From NCBI RefSeq assembly GCF_963675165.1, contig NC_087390.1:5197250-5261249 (forward strand): DNA of 64,000 nt, read 5' to 3'. Of this stretch, positions 29,863-57,600 are shown piece by piece (the first letter of the stretch is position 1; every line of letters starts with the position of its first letter). The notes beneath the pieces are model-generated. The model was not told the DNA's origin. It did not search any database and saw only the letters and a list, made by a program, of their open reading frames with translations. Both the position numbers and the translations under genes were made by a program. The DNA is from Halichondria panicea. Its lineage: Eukaryota; Porifera; Demospongiae; Suberitida; Halichondriidae.

Positions 29863-32800
29863 GTGTGTATTCCAGCTATAACTGCTCAACGGTTGCAATG
29901 CGACGAAAACTAACAGCTTCTATAGGCTTCTAGCCACGTTCTCTTGGATTTTGATTCGTGGATTAGCAAACTAAAGCTTCTTTCTCGAGTTATGGCTAGT
30001 TTGACTCACATTGAAGGCTGTTGCAGTCTCTTCAGAATCTTTCATAGCATCATCTGTCCGCACAAACTTTCTATTCAACATATGAGTTAGCCTTGCACTA
30101 AAGCGCTAGCTTTTTGTTAGCTACAATACTCAGAAAATATCTGTTAAAACAGCTAGCTAGCAGTAGCCATTTGTGAAATTGATCTCTTTGGACACACCCT
30201 TTAATTATTCCTGTGGATGTAATGCGCATGCGCGCTCATTCCCCATGATATCCAAGATCCAGATCCAGATTCTCCTGGCAGAATCATCTTTGTCTTGAGG
30301 GCCTGGTAAGCCACAAAACACTACCATATAACAATATAGATAACAATATGCATGTACACAGGTCTTTTCTTCTTAGATATTATATACACTGAACTACAGA
30401 TCCTGGAAGAATCAATTTTCTTCTTTCTTGAGGTCCTGGTAAGCCACATAATACAATAAATAACAACAATAGATGCATGTAAATAAGTCTTTTCTTCTCA
30501 GTGACTTTATATAGATAAGCTAACTTTAATATAAAATTCATTATAGATAACACTCTAATACTTTTGAGCGAAAGCAAAAACATGGCGAGAGGCATTAGCA
30601 CAGCGCCAGCTTGAACACTAGTTATATCAGTAAATTGCCTACAAATATTTGGCTTACAAATATTTACGGCACAAATGTATGTGTGCAAAAAACATATTGT
30701 ATTAGAACGTTAGTGGTCCTTCTGTACACTATACCCTCCCTACATCTTCCCTTCATCCTCACCTCAGGAAGCCAGCAATGAGTACTCTCACCTTGACCCC
30801 CCCCAGAAGGGAGTGGAGGCAACCAACGAGAAACAGGATGAGGAGGAAGACCCGTACATGGAACTAGGGGAGCTGGAGGCTAACGACCTCATGCAGTTTG
30901 CCTACCAGATCGCCACTGGAATGGTGAGAGATAGTTGAGTTAAAACGGCTGGGCTTCCATATGTATATGTCGTCACCACTTAAGTTATGGGTAAAATCAA
31001 ACTCCTTGTCAGGTTCCGTTGCATGCATAGCATACCTTAACACGCAACTGTAATGAATGTGCCCTAGCTGCATGCATGCATGCATGCATGGTATATTACA
31101 TGTGAATCTTCAACTCACAATTTAACGTACGAGCACAGTGGAAAATGTTTCGGGATTCTTATCAATTCCTTTCTCTCGATATACACATGCAGGAATATCT
31201 TGCCAGTCTAAACATAGTGCATCGCGACCTGGCCTGTCGTAACATCCTGGTTGGTGAGGACAAGAATCTTAAGATCACTGACTTTGGTCTCTCCCGAGAG
31301 GTAGAGGAAGTGTACGTGAAGAAGACACGAGGTCGCCTGCCCCTCAAGTGGATGGCTCTTGAATCTATCAATGAAAGAGAGTTCTCCACCTCCTCTGATG
31401 TGTGGTCCTTTGGAGTGGTCCTTTGGGAGATTGGAACACTGGGTAAGTACAGTTTATTTCCTTGCCAATTTGCCAGCATCTATATATCTAGCGTGTCAGT
31501 GGAACAACCTGCATGTATACCAACGTTAGCACGTACGTATATAGTGGCACACTGTATGTCTTTGATATTTGGGCATAAATCCAAACTCTTTTAGCGTTTT
31601 TATACTGTGGTCGCAATGTACAAAAGTGTTTGCCTTATCTAAAGACAACACGATCAAAATTAATGTCTACATGATTAATGCCTATATAGTACCACTCTTA
31701 TTTGAAAGCACCGCCAAATGCATATAAGTTGAGCTTGTATTCACTAAATGCACTGACTCATTACTGTAGGTGGCTTCCCCTACCCAACCATCAGCAACAC
31801 TGATCTCCTCATGATGCTAAAGCAAGGCTATCGTCTCGAAAAGCCAGACAACTGCGCCCCTCAAGTGTGAGTTATATACAAGTAACGTAACGCATGAAGT
31901 AGTGCAACTGCCACCTATAAAATGAAAGCACCGCAGGTGCTGATGCCTCGGTGAAGATGCCAAAGCTACATAACATAAAGCTACTAATAATTTTGCTGCA
32001 TGCAAAAACTCACAGAATGGGTAATGATCGACCATTATTATTGTTAAAAACGATCTATGCCAAAAGTTCAAGTCTAAAATTAATGGCTGCATTAGCAGAG
32101 CCTTGCAGCTCTCTTCTCACTCTTGCAGCTACCAATAGCTAGCGTTTTAGTGCAGAGCTAACTACTAAGTAGAGTAGCAACACTCGGTAAACAAGTTTGG
32201 CTACGTGCTCTTCTGAAAAAACTGCAATGGCATTCCAAGTAAGCAAAACTAGGTATAACTCGAGAACAAAGCATTATTTTGCAAATCCACGAATTAAAAT
32301 CCAAGTAAACATGACTAGAAGCCTATAGAAACTCTTACTTGCACTTGATTCATCCTTGAGCAGCTGTAGCAGTCTACACAGACAGACAGACAGACAGACA
32401 CACAAACACACTACCGTATACCTCACTTGCGCATGCGCACCGAGGCATAATAATCGATGTGGCTATAGAACATGCTAGAACATACATCAATAGATTATGC
32501 TATACCATTGAATTGTGTACACTGCAATCACTTTTTGTTTGTACAAGTAGCAATATCATAAACAACTATAATTATGTGCAATTCTCGTATCCTATAGATA
32601 TTACTATTAGGAACTCTCTGCACATACAGGTATGAAGTGATGCTTGAGTGCTGGAACGAGCATCCTATCGATCGTCCCACCTTCACAAAATTGCGCAGCA
32701 AGTTCAGCGATATGCTCCTAGCAACCACAAGTGATACGTACATGATCCTCGAAGTTGATGACCAGAAGGTCTACTACACGGTGGCAGATGATGATGAAAA

Positions 32801-33961: not shown

Positions 33962-35988
33962 ATGAAAGGAAACCAATCATATGGAGTATCACCAAATAAA
34001 GGTAGAAATGAACAACGTGCACAAGAAGGCATTTATGATGAAGTCGAGATGCCAGAGCTTCACACGTATAAGAAGACATCTAAAAGTGAACATGTACAAA
34101 GCTCTCGCCAAGAAAAATGGCACTGTGGACACAATGTGCTTTGGGGGATAATGGCAACTATCGTGGTGGTGCTGATTGCCATTCTTGCATCCATTACTCT
34201 GATTGTAGCATCAATGGACTTTCAAGCCCTCAGGGACTTTCAAGGTAAGTCATTTGGAGTAAAATGAATGGATGTAATTGATGCAGTGCTGCAGTTGCAT
34301 GCCCCGAGCTACATGAAGTCGAGAATGGATCAACCACTATCACTCCTGGTCTAGTACATCGTGGGATTGGATCAAAAGTGGATTACTCGTGCGACCAAGG
34401 CTATGTTCTTGTCGGAATTGCCACAAGGCATTGTGTTTACCGATACTACACGGAAATGTTAGGATTTTGGAATGGCAGTGCTCCGTCCTGTCGAGGTAAG
34501 GTGCTTGTCATTATTATATATATATCCCAACACAAAATTATACAGTACGATGCCCACTACTGGACCCAGTGGATCATGGAAGCATGATCCTTAGCTCAAG
34601 GAACATTGCCCCTGTGATTGCAACGTACTCTTGTCAGAATGGTTATCTCCTCATCGGCCCTAAGCAGAGAGAATGTGTATACTCCAGTGGCAAGGAAATT
34701 GGACAATGGAGTGGAATCATGCCATCATGTAAGTTTACAGTCGGTGTTGCAACCATCATTGGATGCTGCATGTGCATGAATGCATAGTTTATGGTGTTGA
34801 TGCATATGCATGCAGTCACTCCATTCATATAGGTCGGATTGGGAGCTTAATTGACTGCAACCAGTCAAATTGCAGGCTCACGACTGTTGATTGCCGCTAT
34901 CGTCAAGGTTACTGTAGCATTAGCTGCAATAGTTCAATGCCTTTTTCCTGTCACCAGGCATCTTTTGATTGTCCACAGAGAGGAAGTGGTTGCTACATAA
35001 ACTGTACGAGTGAATATCAATATGAATGTCTCGGGACTAATACACTATGTGGAGAAAGTGGTGACTGCATTGTCGATTGCCTTGGTCGCTATTCTTGCCA
35101 ATACTCCAACTTTTCCTGTTCTATAAATGGACAGTCTAGAATGAACTGTGCTGGTCAGCAAGCATGTCAATATTCACGATTTACTTGCTCTGAAGGTAAG
35201 CAAGCACTAGTTATCTTTACATGTTATGTGACTGTGATGTAATCTAGGTAAAAATATACACAGGTTATTCTGGAAAGAGCAGCCTAGTACACTGTAGTGG
35301 TTCATCTTCATGTAATAGTGCTACTTTGAGTAACACTCAACAAATAAAGTGCAGTGGCTCTTCGTCATGTTACTATGCCAGTTTGAGTAACGCTCACCAA
35401 CTGGAGTGCAGTGGCTTTTTTTCATGTTACTATGCCGGTTTGCTAAATGCTGAAGAATTGCTAAATTGCAGTGGATCATCATCATGCCAAAGTGTGAATA
35501 ACATTTCTACAGAACAACTACATTGCAGCGGTAATTCCGCTTGTATTAACAGCAGAGGAGATCTGAGTGCTACTTCAATGAACTGCAGTGGATCATCATC
35601 ATGCAGAAGCTCAACGTTCGAAATTGGCCAGGTGAATTGCAATGGGGCATCATCATGTTCATCAAGTACAATAAACTGTCCTTCAAATAGCATGGCATGC
35701 GATGTGAGCTGTTCTGGTATCAACTCATGTCAATCTTTAAACATTTATTGCCCTAACGACGCAGACTGCAATGTACATTGCAACAACAGAGGATCATGTA
35801 ACAATGCTCGCATATATTGTCCAACTGGAAACTACTTCTGCAATATACATTGTTCTAATCCACTGTCCTGTGCGAGCTTGCAAATCACCAACTCACAAAA
35901 CGTCAACCTACGTTGCTGTGGAGATCGGTCATGTGTTGGGGCAAACGTGTCACCAACGAGCACAACGAACTGTATATACACTATATAA
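33962..35988 (+). CDS. Gene E1: type II membrane protein with two CCP domains and Cys-repeat ectodomain
   Basis: Exons: 33962-34244, 34295-34495, 34546-34728, 34833-35195, 35264-35988, all phase-1 junctions, 584 residues. There is no N-terminal signal peptide. About 60 cytosolic residues with EGIYDEVEMPELHTYKK precede one TM (WGIMATIVVVLIAILASITL), so the C-terminus should be outside the cell. Exons 2 and 3 each encode a CCP/sushi domain with four cysteines and the closing W..G...P.C pattern. Exon 4 is a Cys-rich region (DCRYRQGYCSISC). Exon 5 is a run of roughly 19-residue units around CSGSSSC, which may fold as a disulfide-stapled solenoid (inference). IYDEV is a plausible phosphotyrosine SH2 site. 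E2 is its tandem copy. Function unknown; a recognition or adhesion receptor is likely. Confidence 0.85.
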
Positions 35989-38533: not shown

Positions 38534-40755
38534 ATGAAACGAAACCATGGTTTCAAAACAGATCAAGGCACAAATGATCAGAGCCGGCAACAAGAAATAT
38601 ATGAAGAAATCGACATGCCGGAGCTTCACACGTATGAGAAGACACCTAAAAGTGAACATGGAATTGTGCAAAACTCTCGGGAGCAACAATGCAAATTTTG
38701 CTACCGAATGTTTTGGGGGATTATGGCAACTATTGTGGTAATTATTGCCATTCTTGCATCTATTACTCTGATTATAGCATCAGTGGACTTTCAAGCCTTC
38801 AAGGAATTTCAAGGTAAGTCACATCTTAAGTAAAGAAAAAAATAATGTTATTGCAGTTGCATGCCCGGAGCTACCTGAATTCGAGAATAGATCAATCACT
38901 ATCACTCCTGGGCTAGTACATCGTGGGATTGGATCTACAGTGAATTATTCATGCAACCAAGGCTATTTCTTCGTGGGAATAGCCACAAGGCATTGTGTTT
39001 ATTACCAAGATTACTACACTTCACAGGGAGTAGATTTAGGTTTGTGGAACAGGAGCTCCAACTTGTAGAGGTAAGATTACGCAAGTGTAATTATCTTGGT
39101 GCTATTAACCTTAATTATTTATAGTGCAATGCCCAACACTTGACTCAGTGGATCATGGAAGTGTGATCCTCAGCTCAAGGAACATTGCCCCTGTGATTGC
39201 AACGTACTCTTGTCAGAATGGTTATCTCCTTATCGGCCCTAAGCAGAGAGAATGTGTATACTCCAGTGGTGAGGAAATTGGACAATGGAGTGGAATCATG
39301 ACATCATGTAAGTTTAGGCAGTAATCTGTGATGTTGCAACAAGCATTGATTCAATGAGAATACTGCATGTGAACATATAATTACAGTACAAAATAACCAT
39401 AATTATGTTCATATATATAGGTGAGATTGGGAGCTTAATTGATTGCAACCAGAAAAATTGTAAACTCACGACTGTTGATTGCCGCTATCGTCAAGGTTAC
39501 TGTAGCATTAGCTGCAATAGTTCAATGCCTTTTGCCTGTCACCAAGCATCTTTTGATTGTCCACAGAGAGGATTCCGAAGTGGTTGCTACATAAACTGTG
39601 CAAGTAAATATCAATATGAATGTCTTGGGACTAATACACTATGTGGAGAAAGTGGTGACTGCATTGTCGTTTGCCTTGGTCACTCTTCTTGCCAATACTC
39701 CAACGTTTCCTGTTCAAGAAATGGACAGTCTAGAATTAACTGTGCTGGCCAGCAAACGTGTCAATATTCACAATTCACTTGCTCTGAAGGTAAGCATGCA
39801 TGAGCTCTCTTTACATGTCATGTGAGTGATGTAATCCAGATATATATACACAGGTTATTCTGGAAGGAGCAGCCTAGTACACTGTCGTGGTTCATCTTCA
39901 TGTAATAGTGCTACTTTGAGTAACGCTCAGCATGTGGAGTGTAGAGGTTACTTTTCATGTAATAGTGCTACTTTGAGTAACGCTCAGCATTTGGAGTGTA
40001 GAGGTTCATCTTCATGTAATAGTGCTACTTTGAGTAACGCTCAGCATTTGGAGTGTAGAGGTTCATCTTCATGTAATAGTGCAACTTTGAGTAACGCTCA
40101 GCATTTGGAGTGTAGAGGTTCATCTTCATGTAATAGTGCTACTTTGAGTAACGCTCACCAACTGGAATGCAGTGGCTCTTCGTCATGTTACGCAGCCAGG
40201 TTGCTCAATGCTGAAGAATTGCTAAATTGTAGTGGATCATCATCATGCCAAAGTGTGAATAACATTTCTACAGAACAACTACATTGTAGCGGTAATTCTG
40301 CTTGTAGTTACAGCAGAAGAGCACTGAGTGCTACTTCAATGAACTGCAGTGGATCATCATCATGCAGAAGCTCAACCTTCGAAATTGGCCAGGTGAATTG
40401 CAATGGGGCATCATCATGTTCATCAGGTACAATAAACTGTCCTTCGAGTAGCATGTCATGTGATGTGAGCTGTTCTGGTCTCTACTCATGTAATTCTTTA
40501 ACAATTAATTGCGCTAACAACGCAGACTGCAATGTACATTGCAACAGCAGAGGATCATGTAGTTATGCTCGCATATATTGTCCAACTGGAAATTACCTCT
40601 GCAATATACATTGTGCTAATCCACTGTCTTGTGTGAGCTTGCAAATCACCAGCACACGTATATATAAAGTCAACCTACGTTGCTGTGGAGATCGGTCATG
40701 TGTTGGGACAAACGTGTCACCAACGAGCACAACGAACTGTATATACACTGTATAA
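38534..40755 (+). CDS. Gene E2: tandem paralogue of E1 with expanded repeats and a frameshift in CCP1
   Basis: Exons: 38534-38813, 38857-39070, 39125-39307, 39421-39789, 39854-40755, in the same order and phases as E1. The cytosolic tail has QEIYEEIDMPELHTYEK; YEEI is the optimal Src-family SH2 site. TM, CCP2, the Cys-rich exon and the repeat exon are open. Exon 2 differs: after TTGTGG it has 23 bases to the donor where E1 has 25, which puts TAG in frame at 39066-39068 and changes the exit phase. Reading the shifted frame recovers the expected APTCRG. So E2 is either a young pseudogene, rescued by another splice site (a weak TTTAG|GTTTGT at 39036-39045 would restore phase but lose a CCP cysteine), or affected by a sequence error. 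The repeat exon is 177 bases longer than in E1 through added 57-base units. Confidence 0.75.
39901..40157 (+). repeat. 57-bp coding tandem repeat in E2
   Basis: TGTAATAGTGCTACTTTGAG recurs at 39901, 39958, 40015, 40072 and 40129, an exact 57-base period (19 codons: ATLSNAQHLECRGSSSCNS). The copies are almost identical. E1 has three equivalent units, E2 six. Each unit adds two cysteines. Confidence 0.92.
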
Positions 40756-42211: not shown

Positions 42212-45200
42212 TTAATTCTGCCAATCATAGTCAAAAATGGGTCCACAAGTTTGCTGAGGCTGCCCAGGTAGGGAAGAAGGCATTTCCATTGACATCAGCT
42301 TCTTGGCTTGGATTTGCATGCTTGACATAATAGGAATAGAGTCTTTAATAGCATCTGGTTGTCCATCGAAAGCTGCTTGAAGTGACCTTAATAGAGATCG
42401 ATACACGTCGTGAAAAGTTTTTGCTTCTTGGTATAAATGAGAATTTTTGAGGATATTCTTTGATGACGGGTTGTCTTGCATCGGCCATACGCCTTCAGGT
42501 GTAAACTCAATCTCAGCACCTCGGAAATCATAAAAGTACTGCTCGTGATCATGCAATACTCGTAGGTGATGTTTGCATGCCAGCATTTCAAATTTGAAGA
42601 AATGAGCAAGTTCGGAACTCTTTAAATAAGTAGGGTCTCTCTGTTCAGTTCCTTCCCCCTCCTCGATTATCACGTTAATAGCTTCAATCGCATCTTCAAT
42701 GCTGCTCACAGTTCTGAGTTTAATACCATCTTCATGCGCTGTCCAAGGCCAGGTCATTTGCTTGGCATCTTTGTCAAAGAAAGTGTCTCTTTCTTCCTCA
42801 TACAGTTCAATCATGCACTGTTTAATGTTCTTATAAAATGTTCCAATTGTAAGCATATGAGACTTTACTTCTTTCTCCTTGTTAGATAAAGTATCTTCGT
42901 AAACAAGTTCATTTGGGAATTCTATCATCATGAACACATCAGCAATATATTTGGGAGATGCTTTCTGTAGTGTTACATTGAGACCAGGTAACACTCCTCC
43001 CGGTATCTTCCCAGGGTAAGATGGGGCAGCCTGTGCACTGTCTATTACTGGCCGTCCACCGATAGCAATGAGCAGGTTGGCCGCTTGTACCATGTGAAGC
43101 ATTTCTTGCATTACAACTGAGCGTATGATTTCGTATGCCTCTTGATTGTACCCGTCCTTGATAGAGTAGAGAGCAGTTAAGTATGGAGGAATAGTGGAAA
43201 ATTCCAATTGTAGAGCTGTTTGTAAGTTCTCTTTCAGCTGTCTTTTTGAGCAGTGAGAGCTTGTGTACCAACTAGGAAGAGAATTGCTATCGTCATTAGA
43301 TAGTTTTAGAACTGTGGAAAGCAGAGCTTCAATATACGAATCTGTTAAATGATCTCGATTCTTTAACACATCAATGGTACGTCTAATGAACAAATCATTT
43401 TTGCATTCTTTGCAATCACTGAGAGTTTGGGTATGTGATTGTGCTGTGACCATGGCAACTTTAGAAAAGGATTGTGCTATTTCTGATTCTGCAAGCGTTG
43501 GCAGTGAATCTCCTAAACCATCCAAAAGCATGGCTACATACTCGTTTTTAGGGTAACTCTTGATCCAAGACAGCGATTTCTCTATCACCAGTCTTGTATT
43601 GTCCTTTCTCAACTTCTCACGATAAAATAAATAGGATCTATTGCAGAAACTGCTTGCTTCATATTGCTTCTCAATCATAGTATCCCAATTTAGAGGGTGG
43701 TCTTCAGTTCTCAACCATTCTTTGATCATTTCTTTTTTTGTTGGTGAGAGATCTCTAGACGCTGGCATGTAGCCTGGGTGGTTGATATCCATAGACATTG
43801 AGAAAAGAATCATATCGATATTTCGTGGTCTTGTTACAGCTTCATAATCGCCGAGTTTCAGAACGCTACTCATTGCTGGATACAGTTTCTGGTACTGAAA
43901 AAATATTGGCTTTACATGCGTGTCCCAGAAATATGGTTTCTTGTATTTCATATGGCTCCACACAAGGAATGACAATGTGTTTCCTACATTTACTGAACAC
44001 TGCTGGCTACAATTCATCTTCTCACATTGCTCACAAATACAGTAGTTAAATACGAACACCTGGCCGTCAGTATCTTTTCTTGGAGTTCCAACATCGCCTG
44101 CTACGAAATAAAATACGGCAATACCATCTTCACCTGTTGTCTGTGTGCGGGTATACTCAAGGTCAGAGTTTGTAGCATCGCCATTGGGGCTAACGTCACA
44201 GAGGGATAGGGACAGCTTCTCACTCGGCTGAACGCCATAGTGTCTCACTTTTATTCTAGCTTCAGCAGAGTCTCCTTTTTCGAGCCTGTAATTTGTATAG
44301 TCCATTGGGGCTACTAAGTACAGATCCTCACGGAGAATAATATAAACACAGTTTGAAGTGGACAAAGTGTTATTGCTTTTATCGCAGATTGTGTATCGAT
44401 CACCTTGCTTCAAAGTATTTTCAATAGGCTCTGCCTTAAAAAACACTGCAACAACTTTCCGTTTTTGAATAAACTTCAATTGCTGATCAGTAAGTTCAAA
44501 ATCTTGAATGCCCGATGTCATTTTGTACCAGTCTTTTTCCATGTAAGGAAGCTCACCAACAAGTTCAACTGTAACTTGATCATCCACAAGAATACATACA
44601 AACAGTCGGTAGAGGTGACAAAGTTCTCCGTTGGTATCGATCGGTATAGAGTTGCTAAAATCAATTGCCAATGTTGACCCAAACACATCAAAGTAGGTCG
44701 TAGTAGTGAAACTGAAAATAAGTTCACACAATGGGCTCCAAGATGGAACAGGTAAAGGAAAATTATTAATGGCCTTCATAACTCTGTTCTCGGGAAATGA
44801 TAAGGACTCACCAGCTGACGAAATACCGATACTGCCAACTATTTTGCCGTAGAGAAACCAAGGCTCTTCTGGTATCTTGTTGTAATTATATAGTGTTAAC
44901 ATTATTGAGAGAGTGTATCCATTTTCCTTGTCCTTGTGTGTGCGTTCTTTCAATGATTTGAGAGCATTGGAAGTCAACTGTTTAGACCATTGAACATTGA
45001 CAAGTTTTGAAACACTGTGGGCTGCTAGGCATACGGTTTTAGTGTGAGCACATTGCTTATCTGGATCTGTAGAGTTGGCTTGACGAAACCAGACATCCCG
45101 CTCGAGTACGGAAGGAACAAAATCTCCAATAAAAGCATCATTGCTTAGCATACTCCAATTTACACCCAACTTCATCCCATAAACACTGGGAGTCATTTCT

Positions 45201-46155
45201 TGATCTGGATCAAGCGCAGTTAATTTTGGAAGAGAGGACTCGGGATTAATTACGATCGATTCACCAATGATTTCATCTTCAATAGCTAAACCATTTTCTA
45301 GTACTACAGAAGTGACTTTGCAGTCTATCAGTGTAAAAGCGTTTGTCCCTCCTGGGTTAAATTTTTCCACAATTTCTCCTTCTTTTTTGTTTGTTGGTCC
45401 ATTGTTCAAAGTGGCTATATCTGCTCTGAATCGACCCAAAAAGTTAATCCTTGGTTTTTCTAAGAAGGATGCACTTGCTAGTTGAAACCTGTAATTTAAG
45501 CATAACAAAGATGAGTATTTGCCAGGCTTCTGTGTGACCATGGTCTATATATTAGTGGCTTCTCTCTATGCATGCAGACATTATACTAAGAAACAGATGT
45601 ACCATCGAATAATTACATCTACCCGGCTTTTCCTGCGGTTGCAATTAAGGCTCCCAAGCTGATGCTCAAAGAATTACCTGGCCAATGGTATACTACAGTA
45701 TAGACAAATGAAGCAGTCTAAAAAGTGTTGCGATATGTACTGTGTAAAAACCACTGACATTGTGATCATGCATTTGGAGCAGCTCACTCCTGTTAAAGAT
45801 CTACATACATTATATTTTGCTTACAAGTTAAAGCAACAGCTTGAAGCTATTAACTTTCCATGTCTTCCTTCACTAGATGTGGTCAGTCATTAGCATGTAC
45901 TATACACTATTGCTGAAATAAATCCTGCTTTGAGGCAACACAACTTTCTTCTTTCGAGCGATTAGCCACTAGCCTAATCTACTGTCCATATCGCATTTGC
46001 ATGTGAGGTGTAGATTTATAATAGATCATAACTACAGAAGACTCAGTGTATAACAGATATAGTTTCTAGCTATTGATACCTCCAAAGCCACAATCATTAG
46101 CAATAATAACTTACCAGATAATGAATAAATAGAGCCAGGGAGTGCTTGTCTTCAT
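42212..46155 (-). CDS. Gene F1: secreted VioB/RebD-like protein (ferritin-like iminophenyl-pyruvate dimer synthase family)
   Basis: There are two exons: 46155-46115 (signal peptide, phase 2) and 45488-42212. The join gives 1105 residues starting MKTSTPWLYLFIIW, with FQLASA just before the family's N-terminal motif FLEKPRINFLGRFRAD (compare PRIHFRG near the start of VioB). The ferritin-like domain (Pfam Ferritin-like, VioB type) has LEFSTIPPYLTALYSI, then QEMLHM and NLLIAIGGRPV; E776, E809 and H812 fit the E...ExxH metal-ligand pattern. Length matches bacterial VioB (about 1000 residues), so it looks complete. In bacteria VioB/RebD/StaD join two amino-acid-derived imines on the way to violacein or indolocarbazoles. 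No VioA-like oxidase is visible here, so substrate and activity are unknown. The open frame extends past the acceptor to 45541, but there a stop lies directly upstream and the signal-peptide join is better supported. Confidence 0.88.
42900..43230 (-). other. F1 ferritin-like domain core
   Basis: This part encodes LEFSTIPPYLTALYSIKDG, VVMQEMLHMVQAANLLIAIG and PSYPGKIPGGVLPGLNVTLQ in order. These are the signature blocks of the VioB-type ferritin-like domain; E776 and the E809-x-x-H812 pair are the likely metal ligands. Confidence 0.85.
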
Positions 46156-46279
46156 AGTGCACCTCGAACATCAAGCATGCAAAAGGCAACAGTAGCTAGT
46201 CCAGTGAACGTGATGCGCATGCACAATAAGATTACAATCACAGCAACCGTACGTTCTGGCAAGCTAAAAGACGGAATAA

Positions 46280-46531
46280 GGACAAAGGGTCAGAGAGATC
46301 GAGCGGGGAGTCTTCACACCCCTAGTCCTCTCAACCTGGGGAGGAATGGGCAAGGAAGCAGCAACCTTCTACAATAGGCTCGCTGACATGATAGCATCAA
46401 AGGAGACAGAAACTGAATCCCCCCTATACCCAGCTGTAATGGGATGGCTTAGATGCAGGGCTGAGGCTATCATTTGTATCCATTCGCTCCTCAATCGTGT
46501 GCATTCGAGGAAGCCACTCGTCTCTGCATAA
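46280..46531 (+). pseudogene. Transposon-derived ORF fragment
   Basis: One frame reads REIERGVFTPLVLSTWGGMG, then KEAATFYNRLADMIASK and SPLYPAVMGWLRCR, ending in a stop at 46529-46531. The F.PL..S..GGMG.....FY.RLA....K pattern with a following W(I/L)RC(R/K) block is one I associate with the 3' parts of invertebrate retroelement or recombinase ORFs. No start or upstream catalytic part is seen, so it is a remnant. Element class is uncertain. Confidence 0.5.
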
Positions 46532-46772
46532 ACCAGTCTACACGGACAATATCACTCTTGTATCTCAGGAGAGGCGTGTTCCCCCTGAATATGTAATCAT
46601 GCAATCGAACTATGACACTTTCTTTGTTTATTTCCTCATTTTCAACTTTTGACTGTTTTTATTGTTACAGTAACGCATGTATACAATTATTACGGATTAT
46701 AAATAATTATTATCACATTGGTTGTTCGCCTATCCGTTATAAAAGCAAAAACTCGGCCTGGGATTGAGGCTA

Positions 46773-46970
46773 GTAAAATGAAAACACCGCGGGTGCTGAT
46801 GCCCGCGGTGAAGGTGTCAAAGCTAAAGCTATAGCAATACACATATTATATCATGATGAACATTTTGCATAAATTTTGCTGCATGCACAGAACCAGAATC
46901 GCAAAGAGTAGGTATAATGATATCGAATGATTGTTTTATGAACGATCGATGCCAAAAGTCCAAGTCTAAA
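46773..46970 (+). repeat. Interspersed repeat, copy 2 (also at 31919-32081)
   Basis: Shares AAAATGAAA.CACCGC.GGTG, TTTTGCTGCATGCA and GCCAAAAGTCCAAGTCTAAA in order with the gene C intron copy. It contains a small palindrome around ACCGCGGGTGCTGATGCCCG. Confidence 0.6.
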
Positions 46971-47684
46971 GAACACGTATAGGTAACAGTATTTTGGAAT
47001 CCTTCATTTGATTTCAGGGTGTTTTTATACAAACAGCTGTGGTGTGTATACAAATAAAGAGCTCTATAATTATGGTTGTGCAACATTTAAACAAATCGAA
47101 GTTAATAGCTTTACTTATACATGTATAGGCCTGTTCATATTATACTCTATACAGAGTTCATAATTATGCATAAGTTGTTCATTTCTACAGTATTAACGTT
47201 AACGTTATAATTATATACATCAAATATCTTGAAAGTTGGCATAGTTGTCAAAGGAGTCCAAGTAGACCAGAGTAGCATCAAACAGATCCTTGTAGTTGTC
47301 CTGAGGGGAGTGGCACATTGATGCTCATACAAAGTGTGTGGTGGAGCATACATTGTTGTTATGCATGATGAGGAACTGAGTCAATTGATGAAAAAAATTC
47401 CCCCTATATACCGTGAGTCGTAGGGGCTGTGTCCCTTGCTTGTTTTCAGCGCTTAGTTTTGAGGACCCCCGAGATATTATATATGCATGGCGTGGATACT
47501 TCAAGGCTGCCAAAAACAAATTCCAGCCATTGTTCGAAAAAGGAAAGGGATTTCATGAGGGTATTGGATGTGGCTGGGCGGTTACCAAAGGGGAAAGAAG
47601 GAACCAAAAATGGGTCAGTATTGATCATTGTAACCTCCTCACTATCCCGTTTATAGACAGAGATAGGCAAGTGTGTATAGATAT

Positions 47685-47727
47685 GGGGCGAGCATGATGT
47701 AATTGGGTATTACATCATGCTCGCCCC
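47685..47727. repeat. Perfect 19-bp hairpin
   Basis: GGGGCGAGCATGATGTAAT is followed by a 5-base loop and its exact complement. It lies about 145 bases beyond the F2 stop codon on the F2 transcript side. It could be a tiny MITE or an RNA hairpin in the F2 3' region. Confidence 0.85.
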
Positions 47728-47872
47728 AAACATGCATGCTTTGCACTCTTATACTAGACTAGATGTTTTGACCTGGTAACTGTCATGTCTATGCAGATCA
47801 CATGTGTATAATTCATAGCTAAATTAAAAATTACTGGAGGTATAATCATAGTAAAATTCATGCGCATTCCTC

Positions 47873-50800
47873 TTATTTCTGCCAATCATAATCAAAAATA
47901 GGTCCACAAGTTTGCTTAGGCTCCCCAGGTAAGGAAGAAGGCATTTCCATTGCCATCAGCTTCTTGGCTTGGATTTGCATGCTTGACATAATAGGAACAG
48001 ACTCTTTAATAGCATCTGATCGCCCATTGAAAGCTGCTTGAAGTAACCTTAATAGAGATCGATACAAGTCATGAAATATTTTTGCTTCATGGTATACGTG
48101 AGAATTTTTGGGGATATTCTTTGATGACGGGTTGTCTTGCATCGGCCATATGCCTTCAGGTGTAAACTCAATCTCAGCACCTTGGAAATCGTAAAAGTAC
48201 TGCCCGTCATCATGCAATATTCGTAGGTGATGCTTGCATGCCAGCATTTCAAATTTAAAGAAATGAGCAAGTTCAGAACTCTTTAAATAAGTAGGGTCTC
48301 TCTGTTCAGTTCCTTCCCCCTCCTCGATTATCACGTTAATGGCTTCAATCGCATCTTCAATGCTGCTCACAGTTCTGAGTTTAATACCATCTTCGTGCGC
48401 TGTCCAAGGCCAAGTCATTTGCTTGGCATCTTTGTCAAAGAAAGTGTCTCTTTCTTCCTCATACAGTTCAATCATGCACTGTTTAATGTTCTTATAAAAT
48501 GTTCCAATTGTAAGCATATGAGACTTTACTTCTTTCTCCATGTTAGATAAATCGTTTTCATAAACAAGTTCATTTGGGAATTCTATCATCATGAACACAT
48601 CAGCAATATACTTCGGAGATGCTTTCTGAAGTGTTACATTGAGACCAGGTAACACTCCTCCCGGTATCTTCCCGGGGTAAGATGGGGCAGCCTGTGCACT
48701 GTCTATTACTGGCCGTCCACCGATAGCAATGAGCAGGTTGGCCGCTTGTACCATGTGAAGCATTTCTTGCATTACAACTGAGCGTATGATTTCGTACGCC
48801 TCTTGATTGTACCCGTCCTTGATAGAGTAGAGAGCAGTTAAGTATGGAGGAATAGTGGAAAATTCCAATTGTAGAGCTGTTTGTAAGTTCTCCTTTAGCT
48901 GTCTTTTTGAGCAGTGAGAGCTTGTGTACCAACTAGGAAAAGAATTGCTATCGTCATTAGATAGTTTTAGAACTGTAGAAAGCAGAGCTTCAATATACGA
49001 ATCCGTTAAATGATCTCGATTCTTTAACACATCAATAGTACGTTCAATTATGAACAAATCATTTTTGCAATCACTGAGAGTTTGCGTATGTGATTGTGCT
49101 GTGACCATGGCAACTCTAGAAAAGGATTGCGCTATCTCTGATTCTGCAAGCGTTGGCAGTGAATCTCCTAAACCATCCAAAAGCATGGCTACATACTCAT
49201 TTTTAGGGTAACTCTTGATCCAAGACAGCGATTTCTCTATCACCAGTCTTGTATTGTCCTTTCTCAACTTCTCGCGATAAAATAAATAGGATCTATTACA
49301 GAAACTGCTTGCTTCATATTGCTTCTCAATCATAGTATCCCAATTTAGAGGGTGGTCTTCAGTTCTCAACCACTCTTTGATCATTTCTTTTTTTGTAGGT
49401 GAGAGATCTCTAGACGCTGGCATGTAGCCTGGGTTGTTGATATCCATAGACATTGAGAAAAGAATCATATCGATATTTTGTGGTTTTGTTACAGCTTCAT
49501 AATCGCCGAGTTTCAGAACGCTACTCATTGCTGGATACAGTTTCTGGTACTGAAGAAAAATTGGTTTTATGTGTGTGTCCCAGAAATATGGTTTCTTGTA
49601 TTTCATATGGCTCCACACAAGGAATGACAATGTGTTTCCTACATTTACTGAACACTGCTGGCTACAAATCATCTTCTCACATTGCTCACAAATACAATAG
49701 TTAAATATGAACACCTGGCCGTCAATATATTTTCTTGGAGTTCCAACATCACCTGCTAAGAAATAAAATACGGCAATACCATCTTCATCTGTTGTCTGTG
49801 TGCGGGTGTACTCAAGGTCCGAGTTTGTAGCATCGCCATTGGGGCTAACGTCACAGAGGGATAGGGAGAATTTCTCACTCGGCTGAACGCCATAGTGTCT
49901 CACTTTTATTCTAGCTTTAGCAGAGTCTCCTTTTTCAAGCATATAATTTGTATAGTCCATTGGGGTTACTAAGTACGGATCCTCACTGAGAATAATATAA
50001 ACACAGTTTGAAGTGGACAAAGTGTTATTGTTCTTATCGCAGATTGGGTATTGATCACCTTGCTTCAATTTATATTCAACAGGCTTTGCCTTGAAAAACA
50101 CTGCAACAACTTTTCGTTTTTGAACAAACTTCAATTGCTGATCAGTAAGTTCAAAATCTTGAATGCCCGATGTCATTTTGTACCAGTCTTTTTCCATGTA
50201 AGGAAGCTCACCAACAAGTTCAACTGTAACTTGATCATCCACAAGAAGGCATACAAACAGTCGGTAGAGATGACAAAATTCTCCGTTGGTATCGATCGGT
50301 ATGGAGTTGCTAAAATCAATTGCCAATGTTGACCCAAACACATCAAAGTAGGTGGTAGCAGCAAAACTGAAAATGAGTTCACACAATGGGCTCCAAGATG
50401 GAACAGGTAAAGGAAAATTATTAATGGCCTTCATAACTCTGTTCTCAGGAAATGATAAGGACTCACCAGCTGACGAAATACCGATACTGCCAACTATGCT
50501 GCCGTAAAGAAACCAAGGCTCTTTTAATACCTTGTTGTAATTATATAGTGTTAACATTATTGAGAGAGTGTATCCATTTTCTTTGTCCTTGTGTGTGCGT
50601 TCTTTCAAAGATTTGAGAGCATTGGAAGTCAACTGTTTAGACCATTGAACATTGACAAGTTGTGAAACGCTGTGTGCTGCTGAGCACTCGATTTTCTTGT
50701 AAGCATTCTTGTTAGTACAATACTTATCTGGATCCGTGGAGTTGGCTCGACGAAACCAGTTATCACGTTCGAGTACGGAAGGAACAAAATCTCCAATAAA

Positions 50801-51897
50801 AGCATTATTGCTTAGCATACTCCAATTTACACCCAACTTCATCCCATAAATACTAGAAGTAAGTTGTTGATCTGGATCAAGCGCAGTTATCTTCGGAAGA
50901 GAGGACCCGGGATTAATCACAATCGATTCACCAACGATTTCATCTTCAATAGCTAAACCATTTTCTAGCACTACAGAAGTGACTTTAGAGTCTATCATTG
51001 TGAAAGTGTTTGTTCCTCCTGGGTTAAATTTTTCCACAATTTCTCCTCCTTCCATGATGTTCTCATAGTTTGTTGGTCCATTGTTCAAAGTGGCTACATC
51101 TGCTCTGAATCGACCCACAAAGTTTATCCTTGGTTTTTCTAAGAAGGATGCACTTGCTAGTTGAAACCTGTAATTTAAGCATAACAAACATGAGTACTTG
51201 CCAGGCTTCTGTGTGACCATGCGTGGTCTATATATTAGTGGCTTCTCTCTATGCATGCAGACATGGTCTAACCATATACTAAGAAACAGATGTACTATCG
51301 AATAATTACATCTACCCGGCTTTTCCTGCAGTTGCAATTAATGCTGCCAAGCTGATGCTCAAAGAATTACCTGGCCAATGGTATAGTATAGTAATCTTGA
51401 CAAAGAAAGCAGTCTAAAAAGTGTTGAAACTTTTCTTGACATAATTTAATATACTGTGCAAGAACCACTGACATTGTGCTCGTGCATTTGGAGTAGCTCA
51501 CTTCTGTTAAAGATTTACTACATACATTGTAGTTTGCTTCCAAGTTAAAGCAGCAGCTTGAAGCTATTAACTTTCCTGCCTTCACTATAGATGTGGTTAG
51601 ACATTAGCATGACTACTATATACACGTGAATATAAATTGCTGAAAAAAATCATGTTTTGAGGTTCAACACAACTTTCTTCTTTCGAGCGATTAGCCACTA
51701 GCCTGATCTATATATATATATTATACTGCTTTGAATGTGAGGTGTAGATCATATAGATCATAACTACAGAATTACGACTCAGAGTTGACTAGTGTATAGT
51801 AGATCTAGCTATTGATACCTCCAAAGCTATAATCATTGGCAATAATAACTTACCAGCAAATGAATAAACAGAGCCACCAGTGAGTGCTTGTCTTCAT
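47873..51897 (-). CDS. Gene F2: tandem paralogue of F1, secreted VioB/RebD-like protein
   Basis: Exons are 51897-51854 (signal peptide MKTSTHWWLCLFIC, phase 2) and 51167-47873; the join gives 1112 residues. The exon 2 acceptor (AAATTACAG|GTTTCAACT) and signal-exon donor (GCTG|GTAAGT) are conserved with F1. The protein is very similar to F1 along its whole length, with differences concentrated near the N-terminal third (for example EGGEIVEKFNPGGTNTF). The ferritin-like blocks LEFSTIPPYL, QEMLHM and AIGGRPV are unchanged, so the same chemistry is expected. The long upstream extension of the open frame (to 51337) reads through the intron and is not present in F1. The shared 5' flank shows that promoter, intron and coding parts were duplicated together. 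Confidence 0.88.
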
Positions 51898-54610: not shown

Positions 54611-57600
54611 TCAGTGGAATTTGTTTGCATGAGCACTGTCTATTTGTATTTCCTCATCAATCACATGATTGTCACATGAAACAGTTCCATTCAAATTATC
54701 TGCCGAGTAACTCTCACTGAGTTGCGATAAATTCTGCTTCAATATCTCGCTTTTCTCGCTTGACACCGGTGATGGTGAAGTTGGACTAACGCTTCCTGTA
54801 CACTCCGAATCAATCTTGGAAATTCCGTCACATTCGCTTCCCGTCGACCCATTTTCGATGTCATACGTTTCCACGACGATAGTCTGTGTCGTGTATGTAG
54901 TTGATTGAGTGTACTGTCCCAGACACTGCACTTGATCACTGTCTTCTTGCTCGTCCTCTACTATGCTCGGTAGAATGCTGTTAGAGAATGAGTGGCCTTC
55001 GTCTCCTGGAGAGAAATTAAAGTATAAAACTCAGAATTTGGGACAGTTAAAACAACAATTACCGTTAAAAAACTAATGTTCGAATAACAATATCTGATAT
55101 ACCTGCATGACTGTACTATGATAAAGCATGCAATACATGAATACGGTTTTGGCAGAAGGCACTACGGTAACCATTGAAACCCATGCATGCAATAACAACA
55201 CTTGTTTATACCCTTATGAGCGCATATTTTCGCAGAGCAATAATTTTCATACAATTTGACAATGCTACAGTCAATGTTGTTACTGATATACGTACACAGT
55301 GACATAAACTTACCAACTTTATCTCTTCGTTGCCAATAGTTACCAGTACCTCCATCTCTTCCTTTACTGCTTCCACTGTGCTCTGGAGTAGACGTTGACA
55401 GGACCACGTTGTAGTAGACTAGTGTGGGGTCAATTTCTAGAGTGAGAAGTTGTGTTGGTAGCACTCGGGATTGAAGTGACACCAGGGACTCTCTGAGATC
55501 AGTGAATGAAGGTCTTTCAAGACTCTCTTCAGCCCAGCATAGGCTCATCAGATTGTACCTGGATGCACAGTCGTAACATGAATTATCATAAATAATTATG
55601 GAAACCTATAGTAAGACGAATAAGTCAGCTGTGCAATAGTTACCAGTACCTCCAGTAGTATAAAGTTGCAAAGTCCATTAATGGAGCTAGCTAGCAAATT
55701 AACAACGTTTTGGTAACTTACAGATGTTGTGCAGTGTTGGGTGGTCTCTCTAACCTCTCCCCCATTTCCAGGTGAGCCACAAGGTCCTTGTGTCCAACAG
55801 TAGAGTAGGGGAAGCCACCTGTACAGGAAGGATTAGGTCGTAAGGATGGTTACTGTAATATGACATTCTCAAGATAACATATAAGCTTTTCTAAAAAAAT
55901 TGGCACTGGAAATTCAATGCATGAAGTACTTTCTAAACACATACCGAGAGTTGCTATCTCCCACACGGTCACTCCGTACCCCCAAACATCAGTAGCACTG
56001 TTAAACTGCGCCTCCTCCAAAGACTCCAGTGCCATCCATCTCATAGGCAGTCTACCGTCATCTGTTCTGTGGTAGGCTCGAGGTTTAGCCTTTTGTTTAG
56101 AGCAGCCGCTGAGACCAAAGTCTGAAATTTTTATGAGGAGTTTATTATCAAGGTACATGTTTCGACAAGCTAGATCGCCATGGACAACACCAATGGAACT
56201 CAGAAATTCCTGCAGTAAATGAGAAGATAATTAGTAAGTTCAAGCAGTAGATATACTGTAAGAGCACAACATTAATTTGAAACTACACGTACAGCAGCTG
56301 ATGTACAGCTAGATGCATGGATTGCATACTTTTTGTACGTTAAAATGTAGTCACGTACAATTCAATATAGGCACCAAAACTGTTGCATGCATGGCAAAAA
56401 ACACACAGCGTGTTTATAAAATCGAAGCGAATGTGCTTACCATTCCGACAGCAATCTGCTCAGCAAATTGGACCAATGTGTGGCTGGTTACCTCCACACC
56501 TTTGGTACCCTCTACCAACAGTGCTCTCTGATTCTGAAGGAACGTTAGGAGATCACCCCTCAATGGTAACTCTGAAACCATGGAAATGACAGGTCTGATT
56601 CAAACTTTCATGGCAATGAAGGATAGCTAGTTTAGTTTAGTGGAAGGTTGTTTGGATTATGAAACCCATGCCACGATAATTACTTAGGGATTTTCTGCAG
56701 CTGCGTATATATAAAGTGATCCTTAACTCTCATCTATTGTAATAAGTGGCAATTTTCAAGTTTACAATACCAATTAAGATAGGATGATGTCATAGTAGGC
56801 TCATTTTTTACTCCTGTAATATACATACCTGATACCAAGCAACACGGATCTCTGGTAGTCACACAGCCAATCATCTTCACCACATGATCTCCAGCTGTGC
56901 CAGCACAGTAACTCTGGTACGAGACAAGCTTGGTCTGCTCTATGTGGTCCATGAATGACTGTCTCTCTAACTCTCCACTCGAACCTGCAGAGTTTAGAAG
57001 GAGTTTCAATTTTAGCCACAATGCCTTGGGATTACAAATAAATTATAAATGCATGTGGTGTTAAATTTTAAAAGTGTTGTGCAATCAATGTGCTGAGTCC
57101 ACAATACTTGATATAAACATTATTAACTGCAGTTGAAAACACTTCACCCACCTTTTAGTACTTTAATGGCCATACCCCCATCAACTCCGTCAATCTCCTC
57201 AGGCCCTCTCCTAACCACCCCTTGATATACATCACCAAATGCCCCGTGGCCGAGCTTTGTTTGCAAGACAACACTCCCGGGATGCAGCTCCCATGTGTCA
57301 ACATTCAGTAATGGAATATGATCAACGTTGTCTCTTTTGTGAAGCTTGCTGTCCAAATTTTTGGCATGATAGTCACCCTAATAATTATAAGAAGGAGAGA
57401 AAAAAAATCCAGATGAGTAAATGCGAAGTTTTGTACGTGTGAAGGTACATTTACTACAATTCGTGCATGCAGATGTGCATGTACGTCTTGTTGAGTGTAT
57501 ACATATAGATACCAAACTTACGCTCGATTCCAAATACCCTGCTGCTCTCTTGCTGATTCTTCTATTCCTTAAACAAGCAAGTGCAACGCAAATGACCATT

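Follow-up and report, generated by a model that had tools for sequence, protein, structure and literature searches.

A family of fused, bacterial-type ferritin-like proteins, probably secreted, in the sponge Halichondria panicea

The genes F1 and F2 and their copies in the sponge genome

The DNA analysed here is a stretch of 64,000 nucleotides of Halichondria panicea (contig NC_087390.1, positions 5,197,250 to 5,261,249), referred to as the window. It carries two tandem genes on the minus strand, F1 and F2, each of which is made up of a short exon 1 and a single exon 2 of 3.3 kilobases. Their features are, in window positions:

46115-46155, minus strand: F1 exon 1, start codon and likely signal peptide (MKTSTPWLYLFII...); GTAAGT donor, reading frame preserved at the join
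42212-45488, minus strand: F1 exon 2, remaining part of the protein of 1,105 amino acids (aa), including the stop codon; one open frame
43703-45463, minus strand: beta-rich N-terminal part of F1 (residues 28-614 of protein P0001), counterpart, by hhalign, of a bacterial 'hypothetical protein'
42581-43225, minus strand: ferritin-like domain PF12902 of F1 (P0001 residues 774-988; Pfam E 1.9e-56), holding E781, E814, H817, E875, E964 and H981
51854-51897, minus strand: F2 exon 1, start codon and likely signal peptide (MKTSTHWWLCLFIC...); recurring exon junction, joined frame
47873-51167, minus strand: F2 exon 2, remaining part of the 1,112-aa protein, including the stop codon; one open frame, 92% identity to F1
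48242-48886, minus strand: ferritin-like domain PF12902 of F2 (P0002 residues 818-1032; Pfam E 2.9e-56)

The introns have sizes of 626 (F1) and 686 base pairs (F2) and both read GTAAGT...CTTAAATTACAG; after joining of the exons the proteins start with MKTSTPWLYLFIIWFQLASASFLEKPRINF (F1) and MKTSTHWWLCLFICWFQLASASFLEKPRINF (F2), position 51897 being the first base of the F2 start codon. The exon joins were picked from the genomic sequence by recurrence of the junction, and the likely signal peptides were read from the sequence. An automatic join score put other joins above the chosen one in both genes, with the F1 choice outside the top four; the joins were chosen because a phase-2 W-FQL junction was readable in five of the eight copies of the gene described below (F1, F2, L010, L011 and L013). 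A candidate for exon 1 of the copy L012 (MQGDRSLLLLLAW) was dropped, as it had no support from its near-copy L014. With a signal exon recurring in five of eight copies, the signal peptide and the secretion proposed by an initial annotation of this DNA, made from the letters alone, are probable for members of the family.

F1 and F2 show both ends of the family, as the initial annotation had described, namely the PRINF block in the N-terminal part and, in the ferritin-like part, the E...ExxH pattern; their frames have no internal stop. A hidden Markov model search, which it had proposed, matched PF12902 and, up to an E of 1, no other Pfam family in either protein; the scores were 191.9 (F1) and 191.2 bits (F2) over profile positions 1-219 of 221, the gathering cut-off being 22.3 bits. 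The whole assembly (131.5 megabases (Mb), 39 contigs, labelled C1-C39, with masked stretches; the window is C14:5197250-5261249) was searched with the same family and gave eight matches, all of them over the cut-off and in stop-free open frames of 1,051-1,154 aa. These eight intact copies lie on five contigs (two each on C14, C11 and C3, one each on C6 and C1). Therefore, F1 and F2 are not a chance finding, and the duplication noted before was correct for the tandem but understated. A protein search of the genome returned the same eight copies (ten rows) and seven short matches, all on C6. The latter (C6:2273522 and C6:4427052-4492625), one of which has stops, are probably decayed copies.

The copies are 44-92% identical to F1, and both parts of the protein form one fused frame in every one of them. 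The comparable copy pairs show purifying selection: five close pairs with a synonymous divergence (dS) of 0.10-0.24 had whole-length ratios of nonsynonymous to synonymous divergence (dN/dS) of 0.25-0.33, and F1 versus copy C11a gave 0.16 at a dS of 1.80; F1 versus C1 and F1 versus C3a were saturated. The dN/dS of the ferritin half was lower in five of the six pairs that gave values.

Bacterial relatives and the distance from VioB and RebD

A single scan of prokaryote genomes revealed 14 loci with best segments of 27-38% identity. The plasmid scan with F1 gave 165 matching records, eight of which covered at least 80% of the query, and the N half of F1 alone matched eight plasmid records. Rhizobium accounts for 114 of the 165 records, and five Rhizobium among the matches listed cover the ferritin half only. 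No relative was found among phages or, by a pattern-based scan, in viral contigs, and viral or phage carriage was rejected on these grounds. Whole-genome searches with the animal alignment, in which no more than two candidates per genome received a score and the ferritin half made up most rows, found matches in 13 of 398 genomes of one phylum (that of G001) and in 11 of 396 of another (that of G003).

Full-length bacterial relatives encode the halves in two neighbouring genes, annotated as 'hypothetical protein' and 'ferritin-like protein' (hereafter the bacterial pair), with the exception of two Streptomyces loci (L020 and L021) in which they are fused. The animal alignment matched ten bacterial N proteins with an hhalign probability of 100 and an E of 9.8e-84 over 540 columns (as all profile-profile E-values given here, a single comparison of shallow alignments), and the animal C half was 33-37% identical to the ferritin-like proteins of the full-length relatives (blastp E 1e-41 to 1e-54). 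The family is thus of bacterial type, as had been stated. Both proteins of the pair have homologous parts in the animal protein, which is encoded by one fused frame in 8/8 copies and not by two separate genes; the fused Streptomyces loci demonstrate that the two-gene arrangement is not strictly defining for the pair family.

VioB-type enzymes take part in making the purple pigment violacein, and the initial annotation had assigned F1 and F2 to bisindole-pathway enzymes of the VioB/RebD type. For comparison, a 998-aa frame among flavoprotein-like frames at a locus of Chromobacterium subtsugae, which we take to be the vio locus and whose frame is 37-41% identical to proteins annotated as VioB-type, served as VioB reference, and RebD-type references came from plasmids of Pseudonocardia, Nocardiopsis and Streptomyces clavuligerus (VioB/RebD set, n = 4). 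The animal alignment was collinear with these four sequences (profile probability 96.6, E 6.5e-10, 812 columns), and the bacterial N proteins matched them as well (probability 99.4, E 1.4e-21). On the VioB equivalog model TIGR04492, F1 and F2 scored 13.1 and 8 bits against a cut-off of 1,250, and two bacterial pair proteins only 18 bits. The motifs GGEHHLF, WGHYN and CG[DG]G were found in 4/4 VioB/RebD, 0/8 animal and 0/15 bacterial pair or fused sequences, and a [TS]xNN block in 8/8 animal, 15/15 bacterial and 0/4 VioB/RebD sequences, all of these motifs having been chosen after inspection of the alignment. Since C. subtsugae has both VioB and the bacterial pair, the two are separate lines. 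VioB/RebD membership of F1 and F2 was rejected on the equivalog cut-off, the absent motifs and the trees; the proteins group with the bacterial ferritin-like pairs, far from VioB/RebD. Judged by their alignments, animal proteins, bacterial pairs and VioB/RebD are one superfamily, within which the animal protein is to be placed with the pair.

In a concatenated FastTree of 27 sequences (8 animal, 15 bacterial, 4 VioB/RebD) the animals formed one clade (support 1.0) beside all 15 bacterial sequences, and a branch of 2.13 substitutions parted pair, fused and animal sequences from VioB/RebD; here and below, supports are FastTree SH-like (Shimodaira-Hasegawa-like) values after re-rooting, of which those near the root are unreliable. 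A tree of the ferritin domain from 57 sequences put the animals among bacterial sequences, beside two from Streptomyces (L025 and L027, 0.939). The tree of the ferritin half of the 27-sequence set placed them beside the fused Streptomyces (0.965) and the N tree beside Azospirillum L070 (0.354). A bacterial origin by transfer and a fusion of the animal family are well supported, and the horizontal acquisition suggested by the initial annotation is, with the animals lying among bacteria in the ferritin tree, probable.

Candidate metal site, partner genes and flanks

The six residues E781, E814, H817, E875, E964 and H981 (P0001) were identical in all 27 sequences (8/8 animal, 15/15 bacterial, 4/4 VioB/RebD), and the metal-ligand pattern described before is intact. 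Assigned by pattern, which fits a diiron ferritin-like bundle, they are apparently diiron-type ligands. A full-length AlphaFold2 model (17-row alignment) had a predicted local distance difference test (pLDDT) score of 62.1 and a predicted template modelling (pTM) score of 0.40; the ferritin part was best, with many blocks at 80-94 and some loops below 50. Its best match among solved structures was 3hl1_A (Z 26.6, root mean square deviation 2.5, 264 aligned residues, 25% identity). The structure prediction that had been proposed bore out the ferritin fold but gave a weak model outside the ferritin domain. The N half modelled alone (pLDDT 64.3, pTM 0.57) had only beta-sandwich matches, of a strength expected of a common arrangement. 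The proteins contain on average 17.1 cysteines in the animal, 5.8 in the bacterial and 12 in the VioB/RebD set; seven cysteine columns were conserved in 8/8 animal and 0/15 bacterial sequences and an eighth in 8/8 versus 1/15, which fits passage through the secretory pathway. Because the diiron-type site appears intact, members of the family are likely enzymes.

For the bacterial pair, neighbourhoods were sampled from 13 pairs, ten of which were seen (L016, L017 and L054 are outside the count). An ebo metabolite-export cluster, recognised from annotation or with a model, lies beside four pairs: Aureibacter L029, Mycetohabitans L032 and L071, and C. haemolyticum L015, where EboE scored 455 bits (cut-off 250) and an EboA domain was over its cut-off. 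These four span Betaproteobacteria and Bacteroidota. Partial or look-alike ebo genes were seen at Gloeothece L031 and, from reading frames only, at C. subtsugae L019. Proteins resembling LodA/GoxA are encoded next to the fused Streptomyces gene L020 and next to the ferritin-like gene of Actinomadura L022; with the GoxA model they scored 386 and 209 bits, less than its cut-off of 750. Another such protein is annotated near Mycetohabitans L032. According to PMC4417212, PF12902 genes also lie near fungal lodA/lodB in Gymnopus luxurians. The main text of the ebo papers PMC6282210 and PMC5133447 mentions neither ferritin nor VioB. From the ebo and LodA/GoxA neighbours we infer that the bacterial pair handles amino-acid-derived small molecules at or beyond the membrane.

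The initial annotation had seen no amino-acid oxidase partner and had proposed a search of the genome. The amine-oxidase family PF01593 gave 40 matches in the sponge, with 15 rows near the full family length in one frame, 13 of them stop-free. Eight of the 15 were fetched and three searched against the PDB: L078 is L-amino-acid-oxidase-like, L072 monoamine-oxidase-like and L073 polyamine-oxidase-like. By eye, the starts of L072 and L073 are hydrophobic and signal-like, unlike that of L078. An oxidase candidate is thus present, but PF01593 matched 14 of 14 control genomes and presence alone means little. Clusters of single-frame amine-oxidase genes, which code for about 500 aa and several of which begin in a signal-like way, lie at C16:5192884-5200007, C7:3694772-3722328 and C10:1525360-1529549.

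Of the animal receptor genes said to flank F1 and F2, a tyrosine-kinase domain was found on one side (window 31106-31594, E 3.5e-37), but the opposite flank holds only a kinase tail (55162-55605, E 0.0059) under the Pfam cut-off. Two similar cysteine/serine-rich genes with CSGSSSC-type repeats (34733-35988 and 39381-40755, plus strand) weakly resemble Pfam DUF7640 (E 1.3e-5 and 0.0065, both under the cut-off). Overlapping short open frames beside and upstream of F1 exon 1 (46129-46531, plus strand) look by eye like the remnant of a mobile element, and the sequence upstream of F2 differs from that of F1.

A proposed function, its alternatives and known systems

As a tentative best explanation, with a probability of about 0.42, we propose that a bacterial gene was domesticated as a family of secreted diiron oxidases, which probably act outside the cell and there oxidise or couple a molecule that is aromatic or derived from an amino acid. 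A bacterial pair encoding a beta-rich protein of about 600 aa and a PF12902 ferritin-like protein of about 350 aa would have been taken up by an ancestor of the sponge, and a long linker would now connect the two parts in a single polypeptide. In at least five copies the signal peptide would come from a 5' exon, the conserved cysteines would have been gained, and the gene would have reached five contigs by duplication. Two metals bound in the ferritin-like half may activate oxygen or peroxide, and the beta-rich half may shape the substrate pocket. The substrate class, probably aromatic or amino-acid-derived small molecules, is proposed by analogy with the distant cousins VioB and RebD and from the bacterial ebo and LodA/GoxA neighbourhoods; chemical defence or the control of microbes would be the role.

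Several observations weigh against this proposal. The trees disagree on the donor, and a transfer through another eukaryote or an older descent is possible, the trees having compared the animal copies with bacterial sequences. A convincing exon 1 was not found for three of the eight copies (L009, L012 and L014) in the DNA examined, and, apart from its ferritin domain, the structure model is weak. No ebo gene was seen in the stretch around four of the ten pairs (Azospirillum L030, L069 and L070, and Caulobacter L023, the last judged from reading frames only). In the partly masked sponge genome, LodA_C was not found by a search whose positive control matched, nor was EboE by a search without a positive control. 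The reaction itself is drawn by analogy.

The ferritin-like fold with its complete candidate ligand set and the likely secretion signal would also suit a protein that handles iron outside the cell, by oxidation or binding, storage or withholding from microbes, with no metabolite as substrate. We regard this as unlikely, though worth keeping in mind, since it leaves the conserved N part of about 600 aa, which is common to VioB/RebD, unexplained, and metabolite genes neighbour several bacterial loci. A true VioB/RebD function, in which an amino-acid oxidase would supply the aromatic pyruvate imines that are coupled two by two in a bisindole or pigment pathway of the host, is improbable. The collinear homology over 812 columns, the shared candidate ligands and the presence of L078 speak for it, but F1 reached only 13.1 of the 1,250 bits required by TIGR04492, the three VioB/RebD-wide motifs are absent and the branch between the groups is long. 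Moreover, L078 has no signal peptide visible by eye, although the F proteins appear to be secreted, and there is no sign of the heme carried by RebD and StaD, which PMC10851217 describes as heme-containing imine-coupling synthases.

Even less probable is a non-catalytic binding or structural protein that is secreted and merely retains the scaffold: animal-specific cysteines and a beta-sandwich region resembling common extracellular domains are in line with it, but all six candidate ligands are kept in 8/8 copies and dN/dS is lower for the ferritin half in five of the six pairs with values. Contamination or symbiont DNA in the assembly, suggested by a family that is bacterial, was rejected and is hardly credible, since the five contigs that bear the copies measure 6.5 to 18 Mb, and the copies share an intron and have, in the five measured, a content of guanine plus cytosine (0.396-0.409) like that of the window; a kinase exon lies nearby and the best prokaryote identity is about 38%.

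The secreted oxidase family proposed here appears to be a clear example of how a bacterial enzyme of the specialised-metabolism type was fused, equipped with a signal for export and multiplied in an animal genome. Eight expressible proteins are now at hand for a branch of the family for which no described chemistry was found, and it becomes testable whether such animals produce part of their own defensive chemistry, and the recurrent link of the bacterial pair to ebo export or LodA/GoxA-type oxidases could reveal the substrate. It would be a far bolder and a doubtful step to assume that the animal turned the pair, which oxidises metabolites in bacteria, into a secreted enzyme of its own for oxidative coupling, which finishes, outside the cell, some of the dimeric aromatic or indole compounds that are usually credited to microbial symbionts. 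Some sponge and fungal PF12902 records presumably bear the automatic name 'iminophenyl-pyruvate dimer synthase domain'; if so, the genes may be listed in public records though undescribed in the literature found. No report of such an animal gene was found among the titles and abstract openings listed, and the main text of PMC4784904, on prokaryotic genes in Amphimedon, contains neither ferritin, VioB, violacein nor iminophenyl.

Among known systems, the PF12902 genes of G. luxurians, known here by description (PMC4417212), resemble those of the sponge in being borne by a eukaryote, and stand beside an amino-acid-oxidase-type gene; they are fungal and LodA-linked, whereas LodA_C was not found in the sponge. 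Caulobacter CC_0557 (PDB 3hl1) shares the ferritin-like fold with the animal model, the match being limited to the ferritin part (model residues 743-1086). VioB, RebD and StaD share collinear homology and the candidate ligands with the animal proteins, which, unlike them, fail TIGR04492, lack the three motifs and are separated by a long branch. The fused Streptomyces proteins L020 and L021 have both parts in one chain like the animal copies, but the linker between two marker motifs has 44 residues compared to 131-187 in the animal, and the three trees disagree on a sister relation. The bacterial pair of Chromobacterium, Azospirillum, Mycetohabitans, Aureibacter, Gloeothece and Caulobacter has near-full-length homology to the animal proteins in both parts and the same six candidate ligands; it consists of two genes in which no signal peptide was noticed, whereas the animal protein is a fused chain with a likely signal peptide and extra cysteines, encoded in eight copies.

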